This document shows positions 18,666 through 63,029 of a stretch of DNA of 64,000 nt, in pieces. Each line of letters starts with the position of its first letter. Position 1 is the first letter of the stretch. The translations under genes were made by a program, and so were the position numbers. The stretch is from Terebella lapidaria. Taxonomy: Eukaryota > Annelida > Polychaeta > Terebellida > Terebellidae. The stretch lies in NCBI GenBank assembly GCA_949152475.1, contig OX424555.1, forward strand, positions 64,151,977 through 64,215,976. The letters are read 5' to 3'. The notes under the pieces were generated by a model. It did no database searches and had not been told where the DNA came from. It worked only from the letters and a program-made list of their open reading frames with translations.

Positions 18666-18670
18666 ATGTA

Positions 18671-40074: not shown

Positions 40075-40252
40075 TAAAAACAAAACCTGTTTCGTGTGTT
40101 TTCCAGCACACGGGAAAGGTCTCGTTTGAACTGGCGGAAGAACATCAGAAAGCACTCGACCTTCGGTCTCGTGCTCTCTTGTATTCTTCCGCCAGTTCAA
40201 ACTCGATCTTTCCCGTGTGCTGGAAAACACACTCACCTAGTTTTGTCATTTT
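40075..40252. mobile_element. ~175 bp near-perfect foldback element
   Basis: The left arm (CAAAACCTG, GTGTGTTTTCCAGCACACGG, GAAAGGTCTCGTTTGAACTG, GCGGAAGAA) is mirrored to 40250. The centre, AGCACTCGACCTTCGG, then TCTCGTGCT, resembles the centre of the foldback at 5884-6094. Short frames across the arms are shadows. Transcribed, it would form one long hairpin. Confidence 0.8.
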
Positions 40253-40529
40253 ACAACACTAAAGGATCAAACTGAATATTTGGGGTTTCATCGCTGTAAT
40301 ATAACATACATATGTGAGTGATTGGGCTGTGTATTTTTCTATATTTTATGCTATTTTCGTTACTTTTGCATCACTGCATGGGAACCGTTCCGTGCGAAAC
40401 TATTTTTAAAATCTGATTTTCAATGTCAAATTTAGACAAGTTCATGTGCGCATTGGAACTTTTGCAATGTGCAGCTGCTTTGAGGTCAGCACTTTCTACC
40501 GGAAAACCCAAAACCGATTATGCCACTTT

Positions 40530-40710
40530 AATGACACGGGATCGCTACGTCGGCTCCATTCCAATTGCTGCTCATGCTTCCCATTTATATAATAGAAGAC
40601 AAGAATATGGATGAGCGATATTTTGTGTACATCACGCTAAGCTAGGGTGTTCGGACCTGCTCTTCCAATATAATAAGATCGAATGAACTGCTACTCAGAT
40701 CTATCTTCTT
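40530..40710 (+). repeat. Segmental duplication block H' tail
   Basis: Matches 24710-24880: TCCATTCCAATTGCTGCTCA, TGCTTCCCA, AAGACAA(G/A)AAT, CATCACGCTAAGCTA, CTCTTCCAAT and GAATGAACTGC. Separated from the rest of H' by the 38981-40529 stretch. Confidence 0.65.
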
Positions 40711-41924
40711 CAGGTACCAAGCTATATCCATACGCGTAAACGTTTACAAACGTGAAAGTATTCAAACTATCCCATATCATACCAATTAGGTGTGAATCCT
40801 GGGAGATAACTCGCAAGTGTGGAGGCTGCATATTGCGTATACAACTGCACGCTGCACAACTGCACGCTGCCGGAATACACTGTCATTCCTATGCCTCGAC
40901 ACACACCAGCATCAGAATAATTCAAGATGTTGCTGAGAAAGCATTTTGCGAATATTTTTGTCCAAGTCATATGTTTCCTCTGACTTTAGTGTTTGTTGCT
41001 GAAAGTTATTTTCAGCGCTAACATTTTAATAGTTGAAATCCATTTTCATTTTGGTCTCAATTCTGACACTTGATATTGAACTGGCTTGAAGCATCTGCTA
41101 TGTTCTCGACATCCTGTAAAAAGAAGTATCCAGTCATCAATTTTACAGGAATTTGCACAAGTAAGGTATATTCTGTCTGGTCTCAAAGAAACCCTGATAT
41201 GGCACAAAACTGAGACAGTTCCATTAGTCAGACTCACGCCATGTACCATTCATTCTCGTTCGCATCTCAGTGCAGTACTAATGGTCACATTAGTGACACA
41301 CAAACAATTGTACGATCATCATGACACATATAAAGTCACCTGCATGGATTTTATCTCTTTATATCAATATTTAAAGCTGATGTGTGTTCACCATTAGATC
41401 AACCTGCACGTGAAAGCTTCCTGGCACAATCATCAACAAAATGAGTAATTAACAGAATGACAATATAACGTCGTTTTGTGATTTGCAGATAGAGCTTTTT
41501 TTTAGCGTTATAGTATTTATCTTTCTGACATAATGGCTTGTAGGAATGAACAAGATACCACATGAAAAGGGAATTGCCGACTAATTCAGTGGAGTGCAGC
41601 CGACATACAAAAATACATGAGCCATACGTAGTGAGCAGATACGCCTTAGCAAATTTAGCCTCTACTGGGTTGGTTTAGTGATCCAACTATGAAGTCATCA
41701 GTAATTGACTGCAAAGGCCACTGGCAATACGGGGGAAGTTTTCCCCCCTTATTTTAGTACTTATTGCCTGTGGCAGGGATTTGCGGTTCATACAAAATAC
41801 ATTCTCACTCAGACAGCGGCCAATTCACCAATATAAACTCCATTTGCTATCAGACAATTCACTCAACTGCCAAGGGGATCCCTTGTCAATTTCTTTCGTA
41901 GTTTTACACCCAATAAATCACGAA
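40711..41924. other. No gene recognised
   Basis: Includes a 103-codon plus-strand frame (41086-41397) without a convincing domain. Otherwise repeat-free sequence. Confidence 0.4.
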
Positions 41925-42765
41925 CTGGTGTGGTTTTGAATCTGTGATCAGTCAAAAGCATACACCGGCATGCTGTCAACGATGTAACCAAACGAAATAT
42001 CCTAAATGCGCCGAACACACATAACTTACTTCAAATGAACATTGAGGGGAGCAAAATACAGTGTACACGCGGCCTTCGTATCATTGTCACCTGGTAATGT
42101 GGCAGATGTGTTTTATTGACTGTCTAGGGCATTCAATAGATAATACTTCGATTCCTTTTCCAAGCTCTTGGTTCTCTTTATCACAAAGGTGAGCAATATT
42201 CAATAAAATACAATACGGAATAAAATATTCCAAAATAACAATGTAAAGATCATGATGGTATTTTCTTGTCGATAACACAAAATCAGGTCCGTTACGCTTT
42301 CCTGCGATAATGTACTCACCCACTTGTTAATAATGAAAATCAATCAAATTTATTTGCATTGTTTTGGGGGACAATCTTATGAAATTATTTCAATAGAGCA
42401 ATAATGCTTTATTCACTTGTTGGCCGCAGTAATACTTGTTTATCTGGTAAAAGTGTCGAGTTAAAATAATAAGACATAAATTTGGCAAATGAGCGGAAAC
42501 ACATACGACATGTCTGATTGGGAGATGTTGAACGTTTTTTGTGTGGAAAGAGTTGTCTTCAGATGTCTCTCGAAGCTCTGGCCATCACATGTGATGTGGA
42601 TCACAGCAGCATGTCACATATTATCCGCCCTCGCCTACCAGCACACTACAAACAAAATTACGGAATGATCTGGTAAAGATGGTAATCACTGGAGTTGTTT
42701 TTCTGCGAAAACGGGTCAACTAGAAGCTATTCTCGACAACACAAGCAAGTAATTCTACCATGTAG
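41925..42765 (+). repeat. Segmental duplication block I' (copy 2)
   Basis: Counterpart of 27120-28150 about 14.8 kb away. The best islands are GAATCTGTGATCAGTCAAAA at the start, then TTTATTCACTTGTTGGCCGC and CGCCCTCGCCTACCAGCAC. The 78- and 72-codon minus-strand frames have no partner in copy 1. Confidence 0.75.
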
Positions 42766-42904
42766 ACGGTCTTTAGTTCGTGATTCATATGACGGGACAT
42801 GAATTGGAATGAATTCACATGATATGTTTGTATTTTACTTGGCCGGATGTTTTGATAACTCAGCATGTGTAGTCGACCACCAGATAACATTAAATGCATC
42901 TTGT

Positions 42905-42985
42905 AGTTATATTTCAACAGGCGGCCGTTGACACCCACACATTATATGAGTCTACTTGTTGAAACGTACATGGTTGAATTTGTAA
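42905..42985 (+). repeat. Segmental duplication block J' (copy 2)
   Basis: ACACCCACACATTATATGAG, TTGAAACGTACATG and AATTTGTAATAAC match 28925-29010. The foldback element begins 70 bases further on, so the 15.5 kb element was inserted into duplication unit 2. Confidence 0.5.
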
Positions 42986-43045
42986 TAACTGTTATGTTCT
43001 TGTTTTGTTGATGGGACGTCGTCCTTGTGTCGTAACTGGTTATTA

Positions 43046-43053
43046 GAAATAAT
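43046..43053 (+). repeat. Target-site duplication, left (GAAATAAT)
   Basis: GAAATAAT directly precedes the left terminus GGCCCAAG; the same eight bases directly follow the right terminus. Confidence 0.85.
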
Positions 43054-43460
43054 GGCCCAAGTATCATACACTGCGCCTTGATACTACTCGTCCACTAAAT
43101 GAATGCCATTTAATCCGTCTGTCACCTTTTTAATCCTTATTGAATATAGAGGAATAGTCCAGTCAAAGTAGTGTTTAACCTTGAACAAATTGCAACAGAA
43201 TTGATTTTTGCATAATCAGTACCCAAAAGGTAATATTTAACCCCTGTTAAAAATAGAAGAAAATAGAAATGGGGGAAATGGTGTTTTCAGCCCCTTTTTC
43301 AAAATGGCCGCCAACCTGTCTCGAAAATCACATTTTTCTTCTTAACTTCGCTTCTATGACGGATAGAGACTTGATTTTGGTGTCTATACCCATGTTTTAG
43401 GATACCAGCTATCTGATGCACTGACTTACAATACTCTACAACCTTTCTCTGAGTCTTGAA
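43054..43460 (+). repeat. Outer left terminal inverted repeat
   Basis: Mirror of 58305-58586: CCAAGTATCATACACTGCGC, AGTCCAGTCAA, CCTTGAACAAATTGCAACAG, AATTGATTTTTGCAT, AACCCCTGTT, AATAGAAATGGGGGAAAT, CCCCTTTTTCAAAATGGCC, and GATAGAGACTTGATTTTGGT with GTCTATACC. The left copy has ~60 bases extra after CGCCTT. Confidence 0.85.
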
Positions 43461-44214
43461 AATTTAAAATTGATAATTTTGAATAAAATTTGGACATTTT
43501 TCTAATATTTCAGAAGCCGATAATCACGTTCTTGTACACAAAATATATTTTCCACTACTGACATGAACAACTTGACCGTGTATTCAGAAAGCGCAAATGA
43601 CACGTGCCCAATCAGTACTGACAGAGCAGCAAATAGATAGACGCATATATGTGATTTCAGTACCTCGTTGTTGCCTAGAAGTTACAGATGTTTTCATCTG
43701 TCGTCGGCGCTACCGAGTTTGAACAACTCGAGAAATGGCACTTTCCACAAGTCACAGGATACTCTTAGTCATGTTTGCGACACATACAACGCATGGATGC
43801 ACAGTTCGATTTACACTTATAATGTATCGCTTCTAATAACGATGTCGGCGCTGCATCCATATCATTCTTTTGTGTTCATCATTAGTGTGTTTCCATCTCC
43901 ACTGTTCAGGGTTCAGGTTGTTAATCATTTGACATTGTTAAGTGTTTCCATTCTTGGACCTGGTATTACACACGTATGATCTTATTGCACTTGATACCTT
44001 TTCACAGAATTTCCGATACCTCAACTGGTCCAGTGTGCTTGGGTTTTTCCACTGTAGGAAAAGATTCAGGTTATCCGGGCAGCAGCAACAACATCAGTAC
44101 ACTTGTCATGGTCTGTTGAAGTTTCTTCATGGTGGTTCGTTTCCAACTCGATCCATGGATCCTTGACGTTGTGTCCCCGGGCGGTTAGTTCTCAATGCTC
44201 ATTGTAGTGCAGGT
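43461..44214. other. Left-arm segment without mirror partner; no gene
   Basis: Not alignable with the corresponding right-arm stretch 56766-58304. Two frames (103 and 74 codons, 43668-44166) are free of domains. Either this or the right-arm segment was replaced after the arms formed. Confidence 0.4.
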
Positions 44215-44632
44215 TCTTAGCTCATAATTTTGGACGAATTGTTCACATTGTGATAAAAGCATGAAACTTTGCAGAGGGGTAGAGTATCATTCACTGATCA
44301 ATATAAGCTAGGGAGCCATTCTCAATATGGCCTGTGGCGGATATGGCAGCCATTTTTCGTTTTGCAGTAAATCGACCTAAAACGGCTTGAGAAATTGGTT
44401 ATTACCTGTGCATGTCAAATAGTATCCAATATCAACAAAATTGGTATCAAACTGACCGGAATAACAAGGCCAACCCACTCATAACAGAAAAAGATAATTA
44501 TATCGAACATTCTACAGCTATATGTCCAAAAAACAGCTTGTTTGCTTGAATTTTGACAAGTTATCTATGGATCTCGTAGTCGGACATGTACAATAGGTGT
44601 GCCTGCACCCCCTCACCGCACGATCATCTTAA

Positions 44633-45049
44633 CGTAGTCCGCTACAAACATGGAGGTAACGGAGAGTCAAAATTTTAAAGTAATTTCTTGAATATTATCT
44701 CTTCAAAATGACATTATTTTATAGAGTAAATGATCAGCATCCTAATACTGAAAAGAAAATAGGGGGTCACCGTGCTCGTTTCTTTTACATATTCGATCAA
44801 AATCACACATATTTACCTAAAATGACATAAATTCTGGCATTTTTGCACATTTTTTCGTCCATATTCACATCTTGCATCGTGTTTTCCATGAGAACGGATA
44901 CGGTGACCCCCTATTTTCTTTTCAGTTTTAGGAAGCTGAACAGTTACTCTATAAAATATATCATTTCGAAGCTCTAGATTATGTTGACATAGTTATTTAT
45001 TTTAAAAAACTCTTTGACCCCCTCCCCTCACTGTTTGGAGCGGACTACC
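44633..45049. mobile_element. 417 bp MITE with TTAA target duplication
   Basis: TTAA lies on both sides (44629-44632 and 45050-45053). The ends are inverted: (C/G)GTAGTCCGCT at the left, AGCGGACTACC at the right. Inner inverted blocks include GAAAAGAAAATAGGGGGTCA mirrored by TGACCCCCTATTTTCTTTTC. It is absent from the right arm, so the insertion is younger than the foldback. TTAA duplication fits piggyBac or Kolobok-type enzymes; no coding capacity. Confidence 0.85.
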
Positions 45050-45053
45050 TTAA

Positions 45054-45829
45054 ATCAATGTTTTTAGTTAGATTTCATCCTATTATTGATTATTAGGGAG
45101 ATTCCAGAGACTCACCACTGGCGAAAATGGTTGTTTTGGGCCTTTTTCAAAATGTCCACCATCTAAAATGCCGAAATCATGTTTTGGGCCATAACTCGGA
45201 TTCTATTGCAGGTAGAGACATGGTTTTGGTGTCTATACCCATGTTTTTGATACTGAAGAATCCAATTCTGTCATTGCTCAGTACCTGTGCCTGTTACTTG
45301 CTTCAGAATTAAAAATGTCTGATAAGGTGGGAATGATATGTGTAGAAACACTGAGAGGGGACCAGATTGATAATGAAAGCAATTCCATTCCCACATAACA
45401 AACTCAGAAGATAAGAATCAACTTACAGAAATGGTGCCAAGGTGAATTCCTTTGAATTCCTGGACACATGACTTGATGATGAATGCGACGCTCGCTTGTA
45501 GTCATTAGAAAAGAGTGCATTTTTCTGTCATTTGACATGGTAAGAAAGTCAAAAATGCACATGAACTAGTATTTGGGGTTTGCAGAAGCCATCTTTATTA
45601 GTTGTGCATGTGATGCAACACCTTTTCCCCTCACGAAAAACAAGGGAAATCCAAGATGGCTACCAAAGCCAACAGATAATTTTCGCATATAAGCAAGGTC
45701 TCTGCATAAGAATTATCAGTATTGGAACTGAACAATCCAATAATAGTCTATTACAAATCCTGTAATTTACCTTCTATTGCATTGTAATCATGGCACAACA
45801 ATAAAATGCCAGTAAAGTTCCCTATCATT
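45054..45829 (+). repeat. Inner left arm of the foldback
   Basis: Mirrors 55600-56350. It holds the second motif block (AAAATGTCCACCAT, ATCATGTTTTGGGCCATAAC, GGTAGAGACATGGTTTTGGT, GTCTATACCCATG), then CAGTACCTGTG, GTGCCAAGGTG, CTAGTATTTGGGGT, GGCCAACAGATAATTT/GCCAACAGATAATTTT and ATCCTGTAATTT. The homology is cut at 45829 by the array and resumes at 53532. Confidence 0.85.
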
Positions 45830-45923
45830 ACTTGACGAAATTAAATTTCGTCAAGTATGTTGGTCAGTTGCGTTTGTTACTTGACGAAATTAAATTTCGT
45901 CAAGTATGTTGGTCAGTTGCGTT

Positions 45924-45954
<31 letters not shown>

Positions 45955-47489
45955 TTGTTAGCGCTCTACAGGTCACAATTTTGATCGTAGAGTGCTGAAA
46001 ATTTGTCAGAAGTTGTGCAGTCAATACTCGACCAAGTGATTAACTTTTGGGAGGTCAAGGTCAAAAATTGAGGTCAAGGTCAAGCAAAAGGTCAAAATCG
46101 AAAAATCGCGATAACTCCGTTTTCAATCAATGTTATTTTTTCTAGCTATTTTTATATTTTTCTATGGTCAATTCCGCATCATATGATGCATGCCGGATGG
46201 TCTTACGACCAAAACTCCCGATTTTCGGTCCAGGTCGAAAATTTGGGGGTCACGAATTTAGGCTTTTTTCTACCTCGCAATATTCAAAACCATATTATAG
46301 AGCAAATTCCCGATATATGTTGCTGATTTTCACTCAGAAGTTGTGCCTTATCACACAAAACACGATTGTGAAGTTATAGGACTCAAGGTCAAGAATTAGA
46401 GTTAAGGTCATAGTAAAGGTCAAAATCGAAAAATTGCAATAACTTGGCTTTTGATCAAAATTAATTTTTCTAAACATTTTTGTATTTTTATTTGGTCAAT
46501 TCGACATCAGCTGACGTATGTCCGATGGTTGTACGACCAAAACTCCCGATTATCGCCCATGGTTGAACATTTGGGGGTTTTCAGATCATTTGTATTTTGT
46601 GCAATATTCAAACCGTTATTGTGGAGTCAGAATCCGATAGAAGTTGCTGATTTTTAATCAGTAGGTGTGTCTTATCATACTGAACATATGTGTAAAGATG
46701 TAGGACTCAATATCAAGAATTACAGTTAAAGTCATAGTAAAGGTCAAAATCGAAAAATCGCAATAACTCCGTTTCTATTCAATGTTATTTTTTCTGAGTA
46801 TTTTTATATTTTTTTATGGTCAATTCCGCGCCCTGCGGTGCATGCCCGATGGTCGTACGACCAAAACTCCCGATTTTCGGTCCAGGTCGAAAATTTGAGG
46901 GTCATGATTTTATGGTTTCATGTCTCGCAACCTTCAACCCCATATTGCGAGGCCAATTTCTGATATGGGTTATTGATTTTTACTCAGGAGTTGTGCCTTA
47001 TCAAATTGAACAAATCTGTGGAGTTTCTTAACTCAAGGTTGAAAATTAAGGTCAAGGTCATGTAAAAGGTCAAAATCGAAAAATCGCAATAACTCCACTT
47101 TTGATCAACATTAATTTTTGTCAGTATTTTTGTATTTTTATATGGTTAATTCGGCGTCAAATGGTGTATGTGCGATGGTCGTACGACCAAAAGTCCCGAT
47201 TATCGCCCGGTGCCGAAAATCTGGGGGTCATGTGCAAGTTGCATAGTGGTAGCCCTAGTGTAGTGGCCGAAAAATTACCTCACATAAGTTGCCAATTTAT
47301 AGGAGATATGAAATGTTTTATGCAGATTTGAATACACAAATGTGAAACGTGGACTTTCTTGCCCTAATTCTCCAATTGAGTTGACTGTGAAAGTTGGTTA
47401 TCAATACTAGTTTGGGTTATAAAGTTACAGTTATTTTGGATCGATTTCTTCGTGCAGTCATGCCGACATGCATGCGGTCATACATGTAC

Positions 47490-47640
47490 AGTAAATGTAG
47501 GCTTTTGACTCTGCGAGTTCGAATCTACCTGCTTTTAAATATTTTTTTTTTGCTCTTTATTTTTTTCAAGAATATCCAGTACCATTATAATCTATTATAG
47601 TGGTTTTATCCAAGAACTTTTTGCAATTTGTTTTGATATA
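47490..47640 (+). mobile_element. SINE remnant in unit 1 (B-box half only)
   Basis: GTAGGCTTTTGACTCTGCGA, GTTCGAATCTACCTGC and a T-rich TTTTTTTGCTCTTTATTTTT tail match the 3' half of the SINE in units 2 and 3. The A-box half is missing, so unit 1 carries a deletion. Confidence 0.6.
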
Positions 47641-49944
47641 TTATGAATATACACTGTTGAATGATCATTTGGTACTAATATGGCGTGCAAAAATTATCGT
47701 TGCCTCTGTCATATAATACCAGTATGGCATGCAAAAACGGCCATCACGATCTGCTTGAACTCATTAGATAGTTCTCCGAAGATGCAGCATCATGATATGA
47801 AAGTTACCAAGTTGTAGTAACGAACATTTATAGCAGTGTTGTATTCTATAATTTTTCTTATATTGACATCATCAAAATTTTGTGCTGTTAGTAGTATATA
47901 TTATGTTGATACACACATCGATTGAATGTTTTGAATGAGTCAGTCTCAAATGGCTGGGTCTTGCTCAGGAGACGTCATAAAGATTCAATATGTATGTCTG
48001 CTCAGGAGTTGTGCATTATTAATGCTAACAAATTTGTGAAAATTCAGAATTCAAGGGCCAAGGTCACTGTGAAAATGAAGCAACTCTTGTCTAATTTTAA
48101 AATTGTGAATTCTTCTGCTGGGTGATGCTCAGGAGGTGTCTTAAAAGTGCCAATTTCTAATGTTAGAAGTTGTTCAGTATATCTTTTCAATGTGTAATTA
48201 ATGAGTAAATGTTTTAAATGTAAACAAATGTTTAGTTATTTCGTCAAGTGTTGGCCTATGGCCGATTTTTACTTGACGAAATTAAATTTCGTCAAGTATG
48301 TTGGTCAGTTGCGTTTGTCTGTCTGTCTGTCTGTCTGTTTGTTTGTTTGTTTGTTTGTTTGTTTGTTTGTTAGCGCTCTACAGGTCACAATTTTGATCGT
48401 AGAGTGCTGAAAATTTGTCAGAAGTTGTGCAGTCAGTACTCGACCAAGTGATTAACTTTTGGGAGGTCAAGGTCAAAAATTGAGGTCAAGGTCAAGCAAA
48501 AGGTCAAAATCGAAAAATCGCAATAACTCAGTTTCTAATCGATGTTATTTTTTCTAGGTATTTTTATATTTTTCTATGGTCAATTCCGCATCATATGATG
48601 CATGCCCGATGGTCGTATGACCAAAACTCCCGATTTCCGGTCCAGGTCGAAAATTTGGGGGTCACGAATTTAGGTTTTTCCTGCCTCACAATATTCAAAA
48701 CCATATAATAGAGCAAGTTCCCGATAGATGTTCCTGATTTTTATTCAGAAGTTGTGCCTTATCACACAAAACACGATTGTGAAGTTATAGGACTCAAGGT
48801 CAAGAATTAGCGTTAAGGTCATAGTAAAGGTCAAAATCGAAAATTCGCAATAACTTCGCTTCTGATCAAAATTAATTTTTCTAAACATTTTTGTATTTTT
48901 ATTTGGTCAATTCGACATCAGCTGACGTATGTCCGATGGTTGTACGACCAAAACTCCCGATTATCGCCCAAGGTCGAACATTTGGGGGTTTTCAGATCAT
49001 TTGAATTTTGTACAATATTCAAACCGTTATTGTGGAGTCAAAATCCAATATAAGTTGCTGATTTTTAATCAGTAGGTGTGTCTTATCACACTGAACATAT
49101 GTGTAAAAGTGTAGGACTCAAGATCAAGAATTACAGTTAAAGTCATAGTAAAGGTCAAAATCGAAAAATCGCAATAACTCCGTTTCTATTCAAAGTTAAT
49201 TTTTGTGAGTATTTTTATATTTTTTTATGGTCAATTCCACGTCCTGTGGTGCATGCCCGATGGTCGTACGACCAAAATTCCCGATTTTCGGTCCGGGTCA
49301 AAAATTCGAAGGTCTTGATTTTATGGTTTCATGTCTCGCAACTTCAACCCCATATTGCGAGGCCATGTTCTGATATGTGTTATTGATTTTTACTCAAGAG
49401 TTGTGCCTTATCAAATTGAACAAATCTGTGGAGTTTCTTAACTCAAGGTCGAAAATTAAGGTCAAGGTCATGTAAAAGGTCAAAATCGAAAAATCGCAAT
49501 AACTCTACTTTCGATCAACATTAATTTTTGTCAGTATTTTTGTATGGTCAATTCGGCGTCAAATGGTGTATGTGCGATGGTCGTACGACCAAAACTCCCG
49601 ATTATCGCCCGATGCCGAAAATCTGGGGGTCATGTGCAAGTTGCATAGTTGTAGCCCTAGAGTAGTGGCCGCAAAATTACCTAACATAAGTTGCCAATTT
49701 ATAGGAAATATGAAATGTTTTATGCAGATTTGAATACACAAATATGAAATGTGGACTTTTCTTGCTCTAATTCTCCAATTGAGTTGACTGTGAAAGTTGG
49801 TTATCAATATTAGTTTGGGTTATAAAGTTACAGTTATTTTGGGATCGATTTCTTCGTGCAGTCATGCCGACATGCATGCGGTCATACATGTACAGTAAAA
49901 GTTGTTCACAATGGGGAAGGGAATACGGCAACAAGTTGTATGAT

Positions 49945-50100
49945 GGCTCGGTGGCCGAGTGGTTACAGTGCTCGCTCTCTAACACGTAGGCTGTTGACTC
50001 TGTGGGTTAGAATCTACCTGCTGGTAAATATTTTTTTTGCTCTTTGTTTTTTTTTAGAATATCCAGTACCATTATAATCTATTATAGCGGTTATCCAAGA
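49945..50100 (+). mobile_element. tRNA-derived SINE in unit 2
   Basis: A box TGGCCGAGTGG and B-box-like GGGTTAGAATCT (one change from the polymerase III consensus) are followed by a T-rich tail (TTTTTTTGCTCTTTGTTTTT) and AATATCCAGTACC. The arms do not fold as a functional tRNA. Confidence 0.65.
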
Positions 50101-52710
50101 ACTTTTTGCAATGTGTTATGATATATTAATAATATACACTGTTGAATGATCATTTGGTAGGAATATGGGCATTATGTCGTGCGAAAATTGTCGTCGCCTC
50201 TGTCATATAATACCAGTATGGCATACAAAAACGGCCATCACGATCTGCTTGAATTCATTAGATGGTTCTCCAAAGATGCAGCATCATGATATGAAAGTTA
50301 CCAAGTTGTAGTAACGAACATTAATAGCAATACTGTATTTTATGATTTTTTTTATATTGACATCATCAAAATTTTGTGCTGTTAGTAGTATATACTATGT
50401 TGATACACACATCGATTGGATGTTTTAAATGAGTCAGTCTCAAATGGCTGGGTCTTGCTCAGGAGACGTCATAAAATTTCAATATGTATGTCTGCTCAGG
50501 AGTTGTGCATTATTAATTCTAACAAATTTTTGAAAATTCAGAATTCAGGGACAAGTATTAAGGCCAAGGTCACTGTGTAAATGAAGCAACTCTTGTCTAA
50601 TTTCTAAAATTGTGAATTCTACTGCTGGGTGATGCTCAGGAGGTGTCTTAAATGTGTCAATTTCTAATGCTAGTTGTTCAGTAAATATTTTCAATGTGTA
50701 AATTATGAGTAAATGTTTTAAATGTAAATAAACAAATGTGTAGATATTTCGTCAAGTGTTGGCCTATGGCCGATTTTCTGTCTGTCTGTCTGTCTGTCTG
50801 TTTGTTTGTTAGCGCTCTACAGGTCACAATTTTGATCGTAAAGTCCCGAAAATTCGTCAGAAGATGTGCAATTAGTACTCAACCAAGTGATTAACTTTTG
50901 GGAGGTCAAGGTCAAAAACTGAGGTCAAGGTCAAGGAAAAGGTCAAAATCGAAAAATCGCAATAACTTCGCTTCTAATTAAGATTATTTTTTCTAATTAT
51001 TTTTATATTTTTCTATGGTCAATCCCGCATCATATGATGCATGCCCGATGGTCGTATGACCAAAACTCCCGATTTCCGGTCCAGGTCGAAAATTTGGGGG
51101 TCACGAATTTAGGTTTTTCCTGCCTCACAATATTCAAAACCATATAATAGAGCAAGTTCTGGATAGATGTTCCTGATTTTTACTCAGAAGTTGTGCCTTA
51201 TCACACAAAACACGATTGTGAAGTTATAGGACTCAAGGTCAAGAATTAGAGTTAAGGTCATAGTAAAGGTCAAAATCGAAAAATCGCAATAACTTCGCTT
51301 CTGATCAAAATTAATTTTTCTAAACATTTTTGTATTTTTATTTGGTCAATTCGACATCAGCTGACGTATGTCCGACGGTTGTACGACCAAAACTCCCGAT
51401 TATCGCCCAGGGTCGAACATTTGGGGGTTTTGAGATCATTTGAATTTTGTACAATATTCAAACCGTTATTGTGGAGTCAAAATCCAATATAAGTTGCTGA
51501 TTTTTAATCAGTAGGTGTGTCTTATCACATTGAACATATGTGTAAAGGTGTAGGACTCAAGATCAAGAATTACAGTTAAAGTCATAGTAAAGGTCAAAAT
51601 CGAAAAATCGCAATAACTCAGTTTCTAATCAATGTTATTTTTTCTAGGTATTTTTATATTTTTCTATGGTCAATTCCGCATCATATGATGCATGCCCGAT
51701 GGTCGTATGTCCAAAACTCTCGATTTCCGGTCCAGGTCGAAAATTTGGGGGTCACGAATTTAGGTTTTTTAGGCCTCACAATATTCAAAACCATATAATA
51801 GAGCAAATTCCTGATAGATGTTTCTGATTTTTACTCAGAAGTTGTGCCTTATCACACAAAACACGATTTTGAAGTTATAGAACTCAAGATCAAGAATTCG
51901 AGTTAAGGTCATAGTAAAGGTCAAAATCGAAAAATCGCAATAACTTCGCTTCTGATCAAAATTAATTTTTCTAAACATTTTTGTATTTTTATTTGGTCAA
52001 TTCGACATCAGCTGACGTATGTCCGATGGTTGTACGACCCAAACTCCCGATTATCGCCCAAGGCCGAACATTTGGGGGTTTTGAGATCATTTGAATTTTG
52101 TACAATATTCAAACCGTTATTGTGGAGTCAAAATCCAATATAAGTTGCTGGTTTTTAATCAGTAGGTGTGTCTTATCACATTGAACATATGTGTGAAGGT
52201 GTAGGACTCAAGATCAAGAATTACAGTTAAAGTCATAGTAAAAGTCAAAATCGAAAAATCGCAATAACTCCACTTTCGATCAACATTAATTTTTGTCAGT
52301 ATTTTTGTATTTTTGTATGGTCAATTCGGCGTCAAATGGTGTATGTGCGATGGTCGTACGACCAAAACTCCCGATTATCGCCCGATGCCGAAAATCTGGG
52401 GGTCATGTGCAAGTTGCATAGTGGTAGCCCTAGAGTAGTGGCCGCAAAATTACCTAACATAAGTTGCCAATTTATAGGAAATATGAAATGTTTTATGCAG
52501 ATTTGAATACACAAATATGAAATGTGGACTTTTCTTGCTCTAATTCTCCAATTGAGTTGACTGTGAAAGTTGGTTAGTTTGGGTTATAAAGTTACAGTTA
52601 TTTTGGGATCGATTTCTTCGTGCAGTCATGCAGATATGCATGCGGTCATACATGTACAGTAAAAGTTGTTCTCCATGGGGAAGGGAATACGGCAACAAGT
52701 TGTATGATGG

Positions 52711-52868
52711 GTCGGTGGCCGAGTGGTTACAGTGCTCGCTCTCTAAGACGTAGGCTTTTGACTCTGCGGGTTCGAATCTACCTGCTGGTAAATATTTTTT
52801 TTTGCTCTTTGTTTTTTTTTTAGAATATCCAGTACCATTATAATCTATTATAGTGGTTATCCAAGAAC
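52711..52868 (+). mobile_element. tRNA-derived SINE in unit 3
   Basis: A box TGGCCGAGTGG and B box GGGTTCGAATC are tRNA-spaced with a class II-like long variable region. T-arm pairing is weak and the acceptor stem does not close, so this is a pseudo-tRNA SINE head. The tail is as in unit 2. It was part of the unit before the array expanded, since all three units hold it at the same place. Confidence 0.7.
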
Positions 52869-53531
52869 TTTTTGCAATGTGTTATGATATATTATGAATA
52901 TACACTGTTGAATGATCATATGGGCATTATGGCGTGCGAAAATTGTCGTCGCCTCTGTCATATAATACCAGTATGGCATACAAAAACGGCCATCATGATC
53001 TGCTTGAATTCATTAGATGGTTCTCCAAAGATGCAGCATCATGATATGAAAGTTACCAAGTTTTAGTAACGAACATTAATAGCAATACTATATTTTACTA
53101 TATTTTATATTGACATCATCAAAATTTTGTGCTGTTAGTAGTATATACTATGTTGATACACACATCGATTGGATGTTTTAAATGAGTCAGTCTCAAATGG
53201 CTGGGTCTTGCTCAGGAGACGTCATAAAGTTTCAATATGTATGTCTGCTCAGGAGTTGTGCATTATTAATTCTAACAAATTTTTGAAAATTCAGAATTCA
53301 GGGACAAGTATTAAGGCCAAGGTCACTGTGTAAATGAATCAACTCTTGTCTAATTTCTAAAATTGTGAATTCTACTGCTGGGTTATGCTCAGGAGGTGTC
53401 TTAAATGTGTCAATTTCTAATGCTAGGAGTTGTTCAGTAAATCGTTTCAATGAGTAAATTTTGTGTAAATGTTTCAAATGTAAACAAATGTGTAAATAAT
53501 TTCGTCAAGTGTTGGCCTATGGCCGATTTTT

Positions 53532-53870
53532 CTTTGATCGTTTTATCAGCCATCATAAAACGATGCCATGAACATGGGAAGGGTCCCTGCCTCAACACCC
53601 ACCAGTTTTATTCTGCGTGGCAAAATTTGCATGTTCATTGTTGAAAAGCTTTCCTGTTGACACAGTAGCATAATCGTGCTGATGTGTTTAATACAATAAA
53701 AATGATTACCCCTTATGTATGGCACAGAAATATGTGTGTAATTTTTTGTGCATCACGGTATGACAGTGAACTGAAAACAATGCAGTAGCTTCAAAGAAAT
53801 TATATGCCAATCCTAGCTTGATCTCTAGTCTCGAGAACGATTACACAGCAAATAAGCAATGGCATATACA
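53532..53870 (+). repeat. Inner left arm, continuation after the array
   Basis: Mirrors 55285-55600: CATGAACATGGG, CTGCCTCAACACCCA, CACCAGTTTT(A/G)TTCTGCGTG, TTGACACAG, AACTGAAAACAATGCAGTAG and TCTAGTCTCGAGAACGATTA. It confirms that the array split a single continuous arm. Confidence 0.85.
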
Positions 53871-54795
53871 TGTTCATTCCAACTTGGATCTTCTGGATTC
53901 GCAAGGTGAACTGTATTTTGTGCAGTGGCATTTGACACAAAGGTCAAAGACATCCTTAACCTCTTGACCGCCAGACCTGAAAAATTGTCCCACGCCGGGC
54001 ATTTTTTCAAGGAAATTTGCAAAATTAAAGAAAAACCCACAGTTGATTGAAATTTATTAAACAAGTATGAAAAAATATCTAGCCTCGTGCAAGCGACACC
54101 ATTGGGCCTCGGTGTGTTCTGGTTACCATAGCAACAACCACTAATTCTTGAACTTTTCACAAATCTTGAAATAATATTCACGAAAGCATGCAATGTTTTC
54201 ACAGAATATTAATATCCCCATGTCTTTGATTATGAATGTAAGTATCAATCTATTACCACCAATATAAAATATTATACATGCAACTCAGTTTCTTTTATTG
54301 ATGTTAACAACCATACCTAGATATAACTGGTACACATGACAGTGAATTCAGTGGAAGATACCTTTGCTCAGCATGCTCACACACTTACATACATCTGTCA
54401 GACGACAACACCACGGAAAACCCAATAATTTCTCTTTCCATCACATGCATTCCCATTGTATTGATGTACTGATTGTATTGATCTTTGACCAACATATTGA
54501 TTGTAACGAACACTACAACAGTTTCATCGATATACGGAAGCTGCGTGGGAACTTTTGACTGAAAAATATAGACCGTACAAGAAAAAACATGGGAGTGACT
54601 TTGCGCCGGATATTTCCGGCACATAGGCGTCACACAATTACGTTTTGCGCCGGAAATATCCGGCGCTGTTGGCGCTGAAGAGGTTAATAAAATGCATTAT
54701 GGTCTAGAGGGGAACCATCTTTGTTGTCTGTTTCAGTCCATCCATGGTCTGTGGTGTTTTGAACAGCTCCTACTGGTTAATGGGCTCTAGATTGT
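53830..54795 (-). pseudogene. CRC-like gene fragment, left-arm copy (split by MITE)
   Basis: On the minus strand, 54795-54700 gives EPVGAVQNTTDHGWTETD and DNKDGSPL. After the 724 bp insertion, 53955-53830 gives RMSLTFVSNATAQNTVHLAN. These parallel EPLGVVQTPKRHGWNEKDGK and CVRDVSVLDVKCHRTNP in the right-arm copy at 55090-55270. The cysteines of the right copy are not kept, so this copy is more decayed and is broken in several places. Confidence 0.65.
53960..54683. mobile_element. 724 bp non-autonomous piggyBac-like element
   Basis: TTAA on both sides (53956-53959 and 54684-54687) and termini CCTCTT...AAGAGG. The TTAA target and CCY-type ends are typical of piggyBac elements. Subterminal sequence includes GCGCCGGA and a TATTTCCGGC/GCGCCGGAAATATCCGGCGC palindrome at the right. 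A scrap of DR1 (54237-54270) and AT-rich filler lie inside. No transposase. It splits the left CRC-like fragment and has no counterpart in the right arm. Confidence 0.8.
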
Positions 54796-54860
54796 GTTCT
54801 TAATTGGAGTCTTCTGATATGTTGTTCTAGCACATCACTTGTTCCAGGAATTCATTACAT

Positions 54861-55270
54861 ATGACTGATCTTGTGAAAGAGAACCTTCATCCCGACAATG
54901 TCAACGTTGATGTCATCAGTGATAAATTCATGATCCTATTTCATGCATTCACTGGATCTGACAGCTCCTTCGATCTGACTCTCCTTCATATGTTAATATC
55001 ATCTGAGCTGAGACGATGGAATTGGTCTGTGATGATGCAATTATTGAATCTAATATTTATGATATCAACATTGACCTCGTAAGCACAGGGACTAGAGCCC
55101 ATGAACCACTAGGGGTTGTTCAAACCCCTAAAAGGCATGGATGGAATGAGAAAGACGGCAAGAAATTTCCCATGTTAACCACAATATCTTGTGTCAGGGA
55201 TGTCTCTGTTCTTGATGTCAAATGTCATCGCACAAACCCTTGTCAATTTTGCGAATGCAAGCAGGTCTAA
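54861..55270 (+). pseudogene. CRC-like / 'HAFTG' family gene fragment, right-arm copy
   Basis: The first frame reads DLVKENLHPDNVNVDVIS and FHAFTGSDSSFDLTLL. After a frame change the next reads RAHEPLGVVQTPKRHGWNEK, DGKKFPMLTTISC and VKCHRTNPCQFCECKQ. The order HAFTGSD(T)S, then HGW..KDGK.P..TT, then CxxxxCxxCxC matches the family of uncharacterised animal proteins described at 1797-2160. The family role is unknown; the Cys-rich end suggests DNA or zinc binding by analogy with CXC/tesmin domains. The first part lies in the single-copy centre and the second in the right arm. Broken. Confidence 0.65.
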
Positions 55271-56765
55271 CTTGAAATGTATACATGTAAATGCCATTCC
55301 AAATTTGCCGTGTAATCATTCTTGAGACTAGAGGTCAAAGCTATCATTGGCATAGAACATTTATCTTGAGCCACTGCATTGTTTTCAGGTAACTGTCATA
55401 TCGTTCTGGACAAACAAATCACATGTCATTGCTGTATCATACATAAGGGGCAACTCCTGTGTCAACCGGAAACCAATCAACAATGAACATGCTCCATTTG
55501 CCACGCAGAACAAAACTGGTGCATGGGTGTTGAGGCAGAGATATTTCCCATGTTAATGGCAGCTGATAAGATCAACAAACGCGCGGTAGAAGTGACCTTC
55601 AATGGCATTTTATGGTGCCGTGATTCCAATGCAATTGAAAGGAAATTACAGGATCCGTACTGGTCCATTATTGGATTGTTTAGTTTTATCATTACTGGTA
55701 ACTTTTATGCAGAGGCCTTGCTTAAATTCAGAAATTATCTGTTGGCCGTGAGGGCCATCTTGGATTTGATTTCTGTGAAATAAAAAGTGTTGCATTCCAT
55801 GCACAACTGAGAATGATGGTTTCTGCAGACCCTAAATACTAGTTCATTTGTATTTTGCACCATCTTACTAGGAAAATGCAATATTTTCCAGAGACCACAA
55901 ACGAGCATCGCATTAATCATCGAGTCATGTATCCAGGAATTCAAAAGAATCCACCTTGGCACTAATTCTGTAAATTGATTCTTATCTTTTGAGCTTGATA
56001 TGTGGTAATGGAACTGCTTTTACTATCAATCTGGCCTCTTTTAGGATTTCTACTCATATCAGTCGCACCATGGTTGGAGATGTGCTTTTCGCCAGTTTCA
56101 TTGTCAGTCTTTCGTAACTCTGAAGCATTCAACAGTCACAGGTACTCGGCATGGATAAAATTGGATTCCCCAGTATCAAAAACATAGGTATAGACACCAA
56201 AACCATGTCTCTACCTGCAACAGAAGCTGAGATATAGCCCAAAACATGATTTCAGAGTTTTCAATGGTGGCCATTTTGAAAACGGCCCAGAAAACCATAT
56301 TTGCCAGCGATGGGTCTCTAGAAACAGTATTAATAATCAGTAATGTGTTCGGAAATAACTAAAAAAAATAATTTCAGAAAATCATCGGGGGGAGGGGGAG
56401 GAGAGGATGCAGGCACACATACTATACATGCCCGACTATGAGATCCGCTAATAATTAGCAAAATTCAAGCAAAACGCTGTTTTTTTACATATTGCTGCAG
56501 AACATTCAATATAATTATCTTTTTTTCATTTTTTCATATTTGACAGGTATAGTTAGAAATAACGAATTTTGCGAACCGGCCGTTTGAAGTCAATTTACTG
56601 CAAAAAGAAAAATGGCTGCCATATCCGCCACAGGCCATATTTAGAATGGCTCCCTAGCTTATATTGATCAGTGAATGATACTCTACCCCTTTGCAAAGTT
56701 TCATGCTTTTATCACAATGTGAACAATTTTTTTTGCTAAGAACCTGCACTATTGGTTTTCATGCG
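55095..56765 (-). repeat. Inner right arm of the foldback
   Basis: Mirror of the left arm from 54795 back to 44215 without its three insertions. Landmarks read on the minus strand: TGGGCTCTAG, ATGCCATT with GTAATC(G/A)TTCT, CATGGGAA, TTCTGCGTGGCAAA, GGCCAACAGATAATTT, GGTAGAGACATGGTTTTGGT and GGAGCCATTCT(A/C)AATATGGC with CTGTGGCGGATATGGCAGCC. It gives the empty-site sequence for each left-arm insertion. Confidence 0.85.
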
Positions 56766-58304
56766 GATCGGACATTTTTCCAAGACTATATGACCAAACA
56801 TGGTGAAAAAAACATTCAAATGGGTGTGGGGTGTTATCGGTTGCAGATAAGGCTTATGTTATTATGAAAAACTCATAGGAGGTTGTATATGGGCTTCAAA
56901 ATGATGACTTTGAATTTGACCTTGGATGACTTCAAATACTCTGCTTCAGCGTTTGCGTACCTAGAGTTTCCAGCAAAATTTTGCTCGAATTGTGTTATTT
57001 TTTAATAAGCATCTACTAGTAGTGCGGTTTAATAGTTCTCAACGCCTACAAATTTCCATGGGGGGCGGACATTTTTTGAACATTTTATGATCAAATATGG
57101 TGAGAAATTTTAAAATGGGTGTGGAGCATTAATAGTTGCAGATAGGGCCTTCTGTTATGTTAGTATCGAATACTTACTGGATGTCATATATAAATATATG
57201 GACATGAAAACGTTGACCTCGATTATGACCTCGGATGACCTTGAGACGTCAAATACTGATAATTTTACTTTAGCTCAGTTTGTTTGGGGAATTAGATGTA
57301 GGGATTAACGGTTGGGTTTAAATAGTCTATATTGATAGAGAACACTGTGTCACATGTTTATGAAGTTAGTAGGTGACTTTGATCCTAACTATCTACGGTT
57401 GATCCTGCCAGTGGCTTTAAACTTGTTTTTTTTAATAGGCTCATTGTTCGTTTGACTTCAATGTATATGAAGCTGTTTTGAGAAATCGACATGGCACTTG
57501 AGCATAATCACCTTGAATATGTTCTGTTGAATATCTGTATACAGTAACTGTTCTGTCTAGGTGATTCTATAATCTATACAAAAGAGACTGTGTCCAAACC
57601 TGTTGAACCTGTATCATGCTTTATGTATTTTTACTGAAATAAAAGATATAAATAAATATGTGACTCACATAATATGTACCTGAGGAACAGGATCTAAACA
57701 GGTTTCCTCAGGTCTGTTGTACACGAAATGCAAAACATATCAACGTTTATCTAAAGCACTTCGAATCGAGCGCCAATTCATGTGAAAGGATCACCTGTTG
57801 AATATTATGTACTTTGATTAGTTTGAATATCTATTATATTGGTGATAAACTGGTCCTTCTCGGATAAGACCCTCTCCATAAAGACTTACTTTAATGACTT
57901 TTTCCTATGGCGCTAGGATGACTTTTAACATGTAGATGAACCCCTTTAATGACTCCCCTTCATACAAGACATCTATTTCACGGCAGGAGTGTAGGTCGTA
58001 TCTGAGATCACTTTGATATGTGATCATATGGAACTGTGATATGTGGCTCGATAATTCTCAAGTTACCAGTATTCAATTTTTTGCCTGGAGGTGAATGCTC
58101 ATACATATAAGTCACAAGTCCTGGAAATTCGGTTGGACATTGGAAATCTCATATCATTTGGATTTTTAGCGTGGGTGTGTAGAAAGAATCAACTTCGAAA
58201 CCTTACAGCGAACAGGGAATGTCTGATGCCTGACTGGTGTACTTATGTCAATTATGATTACATGTATGTCAGACTCGATTGCATGGGAGCTGTGATATAT
58301 ACAT
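56766..58304. other. Right-arm segment without mirror partner; no gene
   Basis: Contains a loose tandem repeat (56750-57180: AATTTCCATGGGG or TTTTCATGCGGATCGGACAT, TTTTTGAACATTTTATGA, AAATGGGTGTGG, TTGCAGATA(A/G)GGC). The rest is unremarkable. No domain is seen in any frame up to 104 codons. Confidence 0.45.
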
Positions 58305-58586
58305 GGGAGCTGTGGTATAGACACCAAAATCAAGTCTCTATCTGTCATAGAAGCAAAGTTAGGAAGAAAATGGTGATTTTCGAGACAGGTCGGTGGCCAT
58401 TTTGAAAAAGGGGCTGAAATCACTATTTCCCCCATTTCTATTTTCTTCTATTTTCAACAGGGGTTGAATATTACTTTTTGGGTACTTATCATGCAAAAAT
58501 CAATTCTGTTGCAATTTGTTCAAGGTTGGGCAGAATTTCAGCCTAGCTTGACTGGACTAGAAGGCGCAGTGTATGATACTTGGGCC
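58305..58586 (-). repeat. Outer right terminal inverted repeat
   Basis: Mirror of 43054-43460, ending CAGTGTATGATACTTGGGCC. Frames of 104 and 89 codons overlapping here are shadows. Confidence 0.85.
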
Positions 58587-58594
58587 GAAATAAT
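58587..58594 (+). repeat. Target-site duplication, right (GAAATAAT)
   Basis: Identical to 43046-43053 and directly abuts the right terminus GGGCC. Confidence 0.85.
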
Positions 58595-59329
58595 TAAGAT
58601 GTTTCCTCTTTTAGTCCTTTATTCAAAAACACATCTTTACACCATGGCGGCGGGATCTCAACTGAATACAAATTCAAAATTACACATGAAGCGGGAAACC
58701 GGCTTTCTGGAAAGGGGCATGGTCAATTAGCATGGAATGCTCGTGCGTGACAGTCTGACCCCAAGGGGTCACGTACAATAAACATTAAAATGCCGGTCTC
58801 TAGATCTGTGAAACTCATTTATAAACTTTGTGGATATCTGACATCACAAATAAAATCAGTAAGGTATAGTATAAGGGACCAATATATTCATTGCACCTTT
58901 CATCGATTCGATGTCACAATACACAATGCAACAAAGAATGTATGGGGGAAAATAATGACATATTCTCCATCAAATGTGAATCCCAGACTACGCGAGAAAC
59001 AATAATATTTGCAACATTCGTAAAACTTGTCTTCCAAACTTTTCATAGTACATGACATCTCCTGACTAGTATTTATTCATTCAACTACTAAACTAGCTCA
59101 CAAACTAGTTTATTCATTGAATTCTAGTAAATACAAATATTATACACCAAATGTTGTTGAGTGGATGTGATAAGTGAGGCACCGAAACTGTGAGAATGAA
59201 ACATACGCACACAGGATATATAACGTGTCACCACCCTGGTCATTTCCTCAAGGTAAATGGACAATAGTATAATAATAATACAAAATAACATAGAACGTGT
59301 GTTGAACCGGTACATGTGAAATCAACGCT
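58595..59329. other. No gene recognised
   Basis: Frames of 60-88 codons show no domain; no repeat shared elsewhere. Confidence 0.45.
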
Positions 59330-59645
59330 AAATGTGAAACCTGTTCAATGATATTCAGAGTTTCCTAAGCAAACAATACCAAATATTGTTCCATCTTTAT
59401 GAACAGTGAAATATTAATTTGGGGTCATCCATATCAGGTGAAGCTTAAAAACACAGCAGTGTTGCCCATGACGCACTGGTGACACTTCGCACGATCAATG
59501 TGCGCGCGTGTGTGTGTGTGTGTGCATGCCGTACCGGTGTGCAATATAATTGTACCCTTAGAATAATAATTGTACCCATAGAATTACCAGTGTGATTTTG
59601 AATACAGCCGTTTCGTACGACTACTTATCTACCCAGAGATTTTAG
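59330..59645 (+). repeat. Local duplication block L (copy 1), with (GT)n
   Basis: Collinear with 62610-62900: GTTCAAT(G/A)ATATTCAGA, TGTTCCATCTTTATGAACAG/GCTCCATTTTCATGAAAGG, GTGAAATA, GCATGCCGTAC and TTTCGTA(C/T)GACT. A (GT)n run with CGCG lies at 59498-59525. Confidence 0.65.
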
Positions 59646-59649
59646 CAAA

Positions 59650-60898
59650 CATAACGAGACAATCAGAGATTGCAGACCCTCAGCCCCTTAGTCACTGAAA
59701 TTAAAGCTGATAGTTTTTGTATTTTGAACGTGGGCGATAATCAACGATTTTGGTCACACGGCAATTCGTTATATATTAAAGGGTTGGTAATTAGCCATAT
59801 AAAAATCATGGGAGAATTAATCATTAATAAAAGTTCCTGCGATTTCTCTATTTTGACCACATTCTCGACCACAGCATGAATTCTTGACACTGACCTTCCA
59901 AACTTTGTAGGCTCACCCAGATTTATACTGCGTAAAATATTATATTGAATATCTTCAGTGGTTTCTGAATTATTACTACTTGTATTATAATGAATCTGTA
60001 ATTTCAGCTGATGACCCTTACATTCTCGACCTTGGACGACAATGAGGAATATTGATCGCAAGACCATTGGTCTTATAGTTAATGATGAAGAATTGACCAC
60101 AGAAAAATACAAAATTATTAGGGAAAATTAATCATGAATATAAACAGAGTTATTGCAACTTTCTGATTTTGACCTCTTCTGTGACCTTGACCTCGTAGTT
60201 CAATATTGAGCTGTAAAATTTCACCGTAATGTTCCTATTATTAAGGCACATTTCATGAACGAAAACGGTTGAAACAGATCGATAACTGGTTCCACAAAAT
60301 GGTCTCGAATCTCAGTAGGTTGAAAATTTAATATTGATTAGAACCGGAGTTATAGCCAATTATGTGATTTTCTTTTTTCCGTTGCCATGGCAACCGTTTT
60401 TATTCGATTTTGGCAAAATTTGAAAGGGACTGAGCCACTACCATAGCACTCCAGCCCTATAAATTTCAAATCGATTGGACCGTTTGCCTTCGAGTTATGA
60501 GCGCAGACATTTGCACTGAAACGTCGCTGGCCAAAAATAATAGAAATCGTGACACCCAATTTTTCGACATCGGGCGATAATGGAGAGGTTTCGTCGTACG
60601 ACCATCGGTCGTACACCAATCGATCGGGAATTGGCCAAAGAAAAATACAAAAAATAGTTGGAAAAATTAATATCAAGCAGAACCGGAGTTAGAGCCAGTT
60701 ATGTGATTTTCTTTTTTCCGTTGCCATGGCAACCGTTTTCATCCGATTTTGGCAAAATTTGAAAGGGACTGAGCCACTACCATATCACTCCAGCCGTATA
60801 AATTTCAAATCGATCGGACCGTTTGCTTGCGAGTTGTGAGCGCAGATATATACCCGTTTCGTTTTCGAGTTATGAGCGCAGATATATACCCGTTTCGT
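59650..60898 (-). repeat. Modular tandem repeat, inverted relative of 15282-16735
   Basis: On the minus strand from 60890 the modules read ATATATCTGCGCTCATAACT, CGATTTGAAATTTATA, CCATAGCACTCC-type, GGTTGCCATGGCAACGGAAA, TAACTCCGGTTCTGCTTGAT, TTGGCCAATTCCCGATCG and CGACCGATGGTCGTACGACG. More diverged modules follow, and it ends GGTCTGCAATCTCTGATTGT near 59665, the same end as at 16735. The cap and (TCTG)n of the other copy are absent, so this copy is truncated on that side. Frames of 60-123 codons are shadows. Confidence 0.85.
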
Positions 60899-60919
60899 AT
60901 ACATGGTACTGAAAACGCA

Positions 60920-61330
60920 CACACTACATACGGGAATACCCTGAACCAAGGTAGTGACAACCTTCATCCAATTGTATCATGAAACGTCGTTAACGAGAGC
61001 ACATTGGAATTGGTGCAGCGGTTGACCTCGATTAAATTGGTATGTTTATCAGGCAATGTGTCCGGGCCTTTGATGTTTACTTCACTATAGCCTGACATTA
61101 TTCCATGAAACATGTTGACTTTCTGTATAATTCATTTGTGATTGGATCTCACTCATCTCAGGTCCTGACTTTCGTGATAAATATGTGTATATTTGAACCA
61201 AATTATCCACCCGGGCAGGTATCGGGCAACGTAATGAAAAATAGTTTAACTACTAACATAATATTGAGTGTGATACAAAACCAGAGGAACGAAAGTATGT
61301 CCACTGAATTCAAATATGTTACATTGCTTT
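60920..61330 (+). repeat. Dispersed repeat G, copy 4
   Basis: Contains CGGGAATACCCTGAACCAAG, TCATCCAATTGTATCATGAA, ACGTCGTTAACGAGAGCACA, TTGGAATTGGTGCAGCGGTT and ACCAGAGGAACG. Very similar in order to 63035-63370. Confidence 0.75.
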
Positions 61331-61532
61331 GAATAACGGCACATTGGAATCTGATATTAAAAATGAGTAACATGAGCATTGACGATCCCTTCATAGGTGT
61401 GGCATGTGGCAAAACAACTCTACAGCTTTCTCGCCACATCTTTATCCTCTTATTCTCTTATGCACATCTTTTTGTCTTGGCTGGTGTTGCTGAAGTGTAA
61501 GACATACAGAACCCAATTGTGGTGAATTGCAT
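61331..61532. other. Spacer, no gene recognised
   Basis: Short non-coding spacer between repeat G and the coding-like minus-strand region. Confidence 0.4.
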
Positions 61533-62436
61533 TCAACGTTCTCTATAGGTGAGCCACAAATCGTCGTCGAGTGGACCGGCACTCCAACATTCAACATCCG
61601 GCACTCCAACCAGCTCAGAGGCTAACTTCAGTAATAGCCACCACTGGTTGGGGCTGTTCTTGAGATGATAAAATAGGTCTTTCAAGAATGAATCAACATC
61701 GGCAGAGTGTTCTACAAGTGTGTCCCGTGCTGTCAGCTCGAGCCTTGTGTGCACAATAGAGCACATTCACTAGCCAATAAGCTTTTGTGTTTTAGGGTGT
61801 GTTTCATTCTTTCTAAAATTTATGGAAACTCCATCCGCTCCCGACCAACAACTTTTTTTCTTCTCAAAACCATCACACAGTACCTCAACCAGCTTTCCTG
61901 TCTGTACCTCAGCAGGCCTACTGTACATTTCTTGATTCTGTAGGTCACTGTCTTCTGAAGTGAAGAGAGTTCTCATCACAACTTGAGGTAAGTTGTCGGA
62001 ACTTACAGATGCATTCGGGACCATGCTGACAAATGCACGTTCTGATTTAGAAATACGTTCTTTTGCTGTTCAGATGTATGTCAGTTTTGCCTCATACTTC
62101 AGCCTTCTTTTTGAAGCTGCTGTACCGTCGATCAAACAACTGAAGAAATTTGTTTCGGCAACAGTTGTACAGTGGTTCTCATTCATCTGTTCAACTACAA
62201 TGTGGTTAAATGTTCTGCCTGATTTTCATTATTGAATGCCGTCGATAAATGTGAACCCATATGGCTGTATATATCAAGAAGATCAGGGAACTCTGGATAT
62301 GGTGTTTCTTCTCTGCCAATATAGACACTAGCAACAAAAAGTGGCCAAAGGACTTTCCATGCTCATCCCCTCGCAGCAACAAAGAAACTTTCAAGCGTTT
62401 TCTGGTTTTTTTTATGATTGGTTGATCAGTCTCCAA
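61533..62436 (-). pseudogene. Decayed coding region, unrecognised protein
   Basis: Minus-strand frames succeed one another without overlap. First comes KKTRKRLKVSLLLRGDEHGK with SFGHFLLLVSIL, then YPEFPDLLDIYSHMGSHLST and AFNNENQAEHLTT. Then come NLPQVVMRTLFTSEDSDLQN and PAEVQTGKLVEVLCDGFEKK, and finally TRDTLVEHS-like sequence with SFLKDLFYHLKNSPNQWWLL and PLDDDLWLTYRER. Composition is protein-like, unlike the random frames elsewhere. It is broken in several places. I do not recognise the family; it could be a host pseudogene or part of a mobile element. It lies between the two L/G duplicates. Confidence 0.45.
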
Positions 62437-62609
62437 ATCCTAGACACTACGTATGTGCTTCATTGTAACAAGGTTACGGTTCAACATGTAGGTCTTTCCA
62501 TGCATCCCGTAGTCAATACATTTTGCTACCACCTTGCCTTTTTATCTGAAAATAAATAAAATTTGAAAAATCTTTGATACATGGAAAATAGTGAAGTAAT
62601 ATTACAACA

Positions 62610-62900: not shown

Positions 62901-63029
62901 GGAGGTATAATAGAATTTTTTTCTGCGTGTTTCACTTGTGGACTTTTTTGTTTCTAAATCTGTTTCGGTATTCTCTTATGCACTCTTAGCACTCAATAAA
63001 CATGTTTGATATATGATACTAGAAATGCA

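Follow-up and report, generated by a model that had tools for sequence, protein, structure and literature searches.

A transposon footprint in Terebella lapidaria encloses an inner palindrome that may be a second, nested element

We analyzed a 64,000-nucleotide stretch of the polychaete Terebella lapidaria (contig OX424555.1 of assembly GCA_949152475.1, positions 64,151,977 to 64,215,976; here called the window), in which a first-pass annotation had described a single, almost wholly palindromic foldback transposon of 15.5 kb at window positions 43046 to 58594. We found these positions to be the limits of a real transposon insertion with an exact 8-bp target duplication. The sequence between them is, by a narrow preference, best read as two dead cut-and-paste elements, an inner palindrome (element B) nested in an outer element (element A), plus later inserts. 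A single 15.5-kb palindromic element is unsupported, and the inner palindrome is more likely a second element because it has ends of its own. The component pieces are of known kinds, with Galileo, Tetris, and Tm1 as precedents.

The 8-bp sequence GAAATAAT occurs at 43046 to 43053 and again at 58587 to 58594, and at both places it abuts an inverted terminus whose outermost 26 bp are perfect (43054 to 43079 and 58561 to 58586). The duplication is exactly 8 bp long and cannot be extended on either side. Among the 111 maximal inverted exact pairs of at least 16 bp in the window, the termini of A were the only pair with a flank duplication of 4 to 10 bp, and a common flank of 8 to 10 bp was found in 27 of 200,000 draws of random position pairs. 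GAAATAAT and the termini are the footprint of a real insertion. The first-pass annotation was thus right about both the perfect duplication directly outside the inverted termini and the transposition event, and A carries the inverted termini and target duplication of a class II terminal inverted repeat element. The left terminus (43054 to 43390, plus strand) and the right one (58314 to 58586, minus strand) start with GGCCCAAGTATCATAC and form inverted repeats of approximately 270 to 340 bp. They are alike inward to 43390 and 58314, respectively, with 93.5% identity over 214 bp between 43177 to 43390 and 58314 to 58527, and the left terminus has approximately 60 bp not present on the right. A measures approximately 3.0 kb once B is subtracted. 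A perfect outer footprint, however, is no proof that all the sequence between the ends moved together.

Inside the outer termini, four further block pairs follow in strict reverse order. The outer three of these were found by blastn, and the innermost by global alignment only. The outer arms of B lie at 44205 to 44614 (plus strand) and 56401 to 56751 (minus strand), with 73% identity including gaps, and the inner arms at 45049 to 45823 (plus strand) and 55591 to 56377 (minus strand), with 75% identity. The left arm then resumes past a large repeat array at 53540 to 53959, where it carries the end of a gene on its minus strand, and 53564 to 53955 pairs with 55198 to 55561 (70%). It resumes once more past a smaller insert at 54688 to 54796, up to the core; the right arm nearest the core spans 55085 to 55575 (minus strand), and the innermost pair, approximately 54688 to 54796 with 55085 to 55175, is identical at 73% of 75 ungapped columns. 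The single-copy core, whose limits are approximate, occupies 54797 to 55084 (approximately 290 bp). The earlier statement that the arms stay in mirror order nearly to a core of approximately 300 bp therefore holds, provided that the later insertions are skipped, and with the inserts skipped most of B alone lies in inverted arms. The description "almost wholly palindromic" was wrong, since the mirror blocks make up 3,927 of 15,533 bp (25%) and a 7.7-kb array sits in the left arm. The blocks could also be copies of dispersed repeats that were inserted independently and came by chance to face each other between ends that have nothing to do with one another. Repeats are abundant in the window, where a further inverted pair lies at 7510 to 8811 and 12580 to 13802, but adjacent blocks in exact mirror order, once the identified inserts are skipped, make such a coincidence improbable.

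Sharp ends bound the inner palindrome at 44205 and 56751, where its first 17 bp are perfect and are flanked on both sides by TTG (44202 to 44204 and 56752 to 56754). The identity between its arms is 90 to 98% in the first ~150 bp and mostly ~80% thereafter, and the 93% block of A stops separately, at 43390. The 17-bp terminus of B has no other occurrence in the window at up to three mismatches. On the right side, a blastn match between two imperfect repeats halts 4 bp outside the end of B; on the left, the relic of a gene in A (gene A) is legible to within ~150 bp of B and was not seen, by eye, within its arm. From the outer ends to the inner mirror there is a gap of 814 bp on the left and of 1,562 bp on the right. 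These two intervals, 43391 to 44204 and 56752 to 58313, showed only chance-level likeness, with three matches of 19 to 23 bp at an E value of 0.53 each. Together, these features favor a second element, B, inserted in A. The right-hand interval, which is present on that side only and belongs to A or to later inserts, contains an imperfect repeat with a spacing of approximately 297 bp. Without its inserts, B is approximately 3.7 kb long.

Several observations weigh against two separate elements. The TTG match is weak, as a match of 3 to 10 bp was shared by 509 of 20,000 random pairs, and it was sought after the fact. An alignment across the right end of B scored above 295 of 300 shuffles; repeat similarity may therefore continue there, which would argue against an insertion edge. 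Gene A has no continuation visible by eye to the right of B, where a clean insertion would predict one. Lastly, a subterminal segment of A (43283 to 43398) resembles the arms of B at 72 to 74% in the same sense over approximately 100 bp, a likeness that links A with B and equally fits one mosaic element. Such an element would be a foldback of approximately 6.7 kb, not counting the array and two smaller inserts, that moved as a unit; its long arms would have taken in pieces of the element's own gene, and one arm or both would have lost or replaced what lay between the outer termini and the inner arms. We consider this a credible reading that falls short of being probable. It would account for a mirror order that is strict all the way from the termini to the core, for the segment common to the outer terminus and inner arm, and for the possible similarity across the right end of B, and in Galileo, termini as long as 4.7 kb are described as having recruited open reading frame (ORF) pieces and other transposable elements (PMC4168063). 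Against it stand the chance-level likeness of 43391 to 44204 and 56752 to 58313, the gene A relic, seen in the left arm only, and the first ~150 bp of B, whose arms agree better there than over most of the sequence farther in, which a single gradient does not predict. Of the one large transposed element first proposed, the insertion with its 8-bp duplication is supported; its extent as a single 15.5-kb palindrome is not, given a later array of approximately 7.7 kb and the separate ends of the inner palindrome.

The left arm of B is broken three times, and because the mirror homology picks up again on both sides of each nested insert, we attribute the breaks to later insertions. Two of these lie between TTAA copies and total 1.1 kb: a self-palindromic insert at 44629 to 45053 and one with the ends CCTCTT...AAGAGG at 53956 to 54687. 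The third is the 7.7-kb array at 45829 to 53536 (plus strand, edges placed by eye), which looks like a modular element of the pearl/Helitron type inserted in tandem. It consists of three head-to-tail units, each of which ends with GGCCTATGGCCGATTTT, and contains tetranucleotide runs and 324-bp tandem repeats. These are direct repeats, as all pairs from the array had the same orientation among the 80 matches listed. The array resembles the modular repeats of the "pearl" type described in bivalves (PMC5139131). Related repeats resembling parts of it were also observed at 14496 to 16632, which includes a 338-bp array at 15367 to 16457, and, in opposite orientation, at 59832 to 60849.

Palindromes are a common assembly error, and an assembly fold or hairpin artifact had been named from the start as the finding that could undo the mirror. 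The arms, however, are only 73 to 87% identical in ungapped blocks (13 to 27% divergence), and the left arm alone carries the array and the pair of TTAA-flanked inserts. A collapsed or folded assembly would yield near-identical arms, and a fold would duplicate one arm rather than give arms with different inserts. The divergence and the arm-specific inserts therefore rule out a fold, to which we attach next to no probability.

Both arms of B hold one and the same gene end, running outward. The right copy (gene B) lies at 54831 to 55312 on the plus strand, in more than one frame, and points to the right; the left copy, at 53861 to 53959 plus 54688 to 54796 on the minus strand, points to the left. 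The differences between the two copies were counted by codon phase (12, 10, and 8 of 30 each in one comparison; 11, 14, and 11 of 33, 34, and 34 in the other), and no codon-phase bias was found between them, which indicates that the copies drifted as dead sequence. In A, a frameshifted, cysteine (Cys)-rich, putatively CXC-like gene end was recognized by eye at 43672 to 44051 on the minus strand; it points toward the left terminus and has its Cys motif at 43722 to 43815. The outward gene-end copies in both arms of B bear out the earlier claim of opposite-facing gene pieces and support an inverted duplication that involved a gene end, but the CRC label attached to those pieces has no support from a Pfam profile.

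The Pfam scans were made in six frames at an E value of ≤1 for 43000 to 45902 and 53540 to 58532, and at ≤0.01 for 1 to 4992, 38001 to 42992, 46001 to 50992, and 58651 to 63642. Pfam was also run on seven ORFs and on single gene pieces. Neither the six frames of the two regions scanned at ≤1 nor the seven ORFs gave a match. The sole match of all six-frame scans was a weak one to DDE_1 near the window start (2180 to 2425, plus strand; E value of 0.0018, 18.3 bits versus a cut-off of 22), and its detection indicates that the method is able to pick up a relic. This fragment is probably a pogo/Tigger relic.

Below threshold, two different gene A pieces matched preSET_CXC (E value of 4.1, 8.4 bits versus a cut-off of 23.3) and Zn_ribbon_bTOP1 (E value of 0.04), and the relic did not match the Tesmin/TSO1-like CXC (CRC) profile. 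A strict Cys (CXC) pattern, written first, had no match in the window. A looser pattern, written once the fragment had been seen, matched once in the window; of 100 simulated windows, two contained it and none contained its longer form. A PDB sequence search gave no match for a gene A piece and six for a gene B piece, the best with an E value of 0.83; a protein search with a gene B piece in viral_contigs gave 33 pattern stretches, none of which was confirmed. A literature search on CXC/CRC and transposons returned no title on CXC-bearing transposons. The gene pieces may belong to a CXC-ended, nuclease-like protein family of invertebrate repeats, and the stretch HAFTGSD may resemble Academ/XPG-type nuclease proteins. 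Tentatively, A and B might be cousins in one group of animal transposons, unrecognized by Pfam here, in which the encoded protein terminates with a Cys-rich, CXC-like module just inside the 3′ terminus; that gene end would here have been absorbed into both arms, although we hold this to be doubtful. If true, it would add a further case, beside Galileo, of gene recruitment into inverted termini.

No transposase that would decide among Merlin, Zisupton, P, and hAT was recognized in A or B by Pfam in the two regions scanned at ≤1. The first-pass annotation held that a GGCCC start does not match the usual ends, which overlooks Merlin, whose termini begin with GG, have 8- or 9-bp duplications, and are 24 to 462 bp long (PMC8101967). 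The GGCCC ends and 8-bp duplication of A fit Merlin in both respects, without proving membership. In the same two regions, there was no match to the Merlin domain DDE_Tnp_IS1595, nor to KDZ, P-type, or hAT transposases, all of which a non-autonomous copy would also lack. Merlin copies in bivalves differ in averaging 1,635 bp (PMC10294476). Zisupton shares the 8-bp duplication (PMC12730594).

The closest known systems share parts of this layout. Galileo, of the P superfamily in Drosophila, has long, variable termini (4,246 and 4,680 bp in copy 112), at least 545 bp of the transposase ORF in both termini of copy 147, tandem repeats and other transposable elements within the termini, and 7- or 8-bp duplications (PMC4168063). 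Its termini, however, are 97.5 to 99.9% identical where values are given (the nearly complete copy and copies 147 and 145), whereas the arms here have diverged by 13 to 27%, and the ORF that it recruited is that of its own transposase, whereas none was recognized here and the ends start with GGCCC. Tetris of Drosophila virilis is an apparently non-autonomous foldback with 8- to 10-bp duplications and without a conserved ORF (PMC4079207), but it has ~220-bp tandem repeats in its termini, whereas the array here is an insert in one arm only. The Mutator/Foldback element Tm1 of root-knot nematodes has composite long termini with an average identity of 93%, 8- to 10-bp duplications, and gene-like cargo in some members; it differs in that 9 bp is its commonest duplication and that a copy with a MULE-like transposase exists (PMC3169594), none being seen here. 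For B, AcademX offers 3- to 4-bp duplications and a nuclease (PMC10045372), and Academ is amplified in bivalves (PMC10294476). The TTG/TTG duplication of B is weak by the random-pair count given above, and the gene B pieces, putatively nuclease-like in character, had no Pfam match to the Academ transposase or an XPG-type nuclease.

We searched for other copies with the termini. In viral_contigs, the 24-mer and the 18-mer of the A terminus had no match each, and the 17-mer of the B terminus had two, of which at least one was compared with the window and showed no homology at an E value of ≤1e-3. A 20-base pattern of the A terminus had one match in genome_contigs, in a contig titled Clostridiales with long ORFs of the bacterial type; its likeness to the window beyond the terminus was at chance level, and we judged it a chance match. 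Within the window, the only other occurrence of the A terminus was a weak one at 5363 to 5378 (minus strand), where GGCCCAAGTAGCGCAC has three mismatches to its first 16 bp. The letters of the A terminus retrieved no transposon title among the literature matches listed.

With B nested in A, the locus could have formed as follows. A would have been inserted by cut-and-paste transposition with an 8-bp staggered cut, and B would have landed in it later, possibly with a 3-bp duplication of TTG. B looks as if the 3′ half of a gene-bearing transposon were present twice, head to head around the ~290-bp core; that half may have been copied in inverted orientation, and the simplest route would be a switch of template in the course of gap repair, which is among the processes named for altered Galileo copies (PMC4168063). 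Because no transposase was recognized in either, both elements were presumably mobilized by an enzyme from elsewhere. Both would have lost their coding function, and the left arm of B was disrupted by the array and by the TTAA-flanked inserts. Copies arranged in the same way, if there are any, would make the locus an example of inverted termini that grow by engulfing the element's own gene, which is documented for Galileo and called unique to it so far (PMC4168063). The interest is modest unless further copies show the whole mirror moving as one.

The window has a guanine-plus-cytosine content of 38%, its longest stop-to-stop frame is 241 amino acids, and it contains no tRNA by ARAGORN and no match to Rfam at gathering scores. 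It is rich in tandem and inverted repeats. The second large inverted pair, at 7510 to 8811 and 12580 to 13802, has 86 to 92% identity, and no target duplication was seen by eye at its aligned edges. A smaller inverted pair of approximately 347 bp, at 33818 to 34164 and 36016 to 36362, has 90% identity. A tandem array at 18664 to 20426 consists of 4.9 copies of a 363-bp unit with 99% identity, and weaker relatives of this array were found at 5726 to 5842 and at 26.0 to 26.6 kb.

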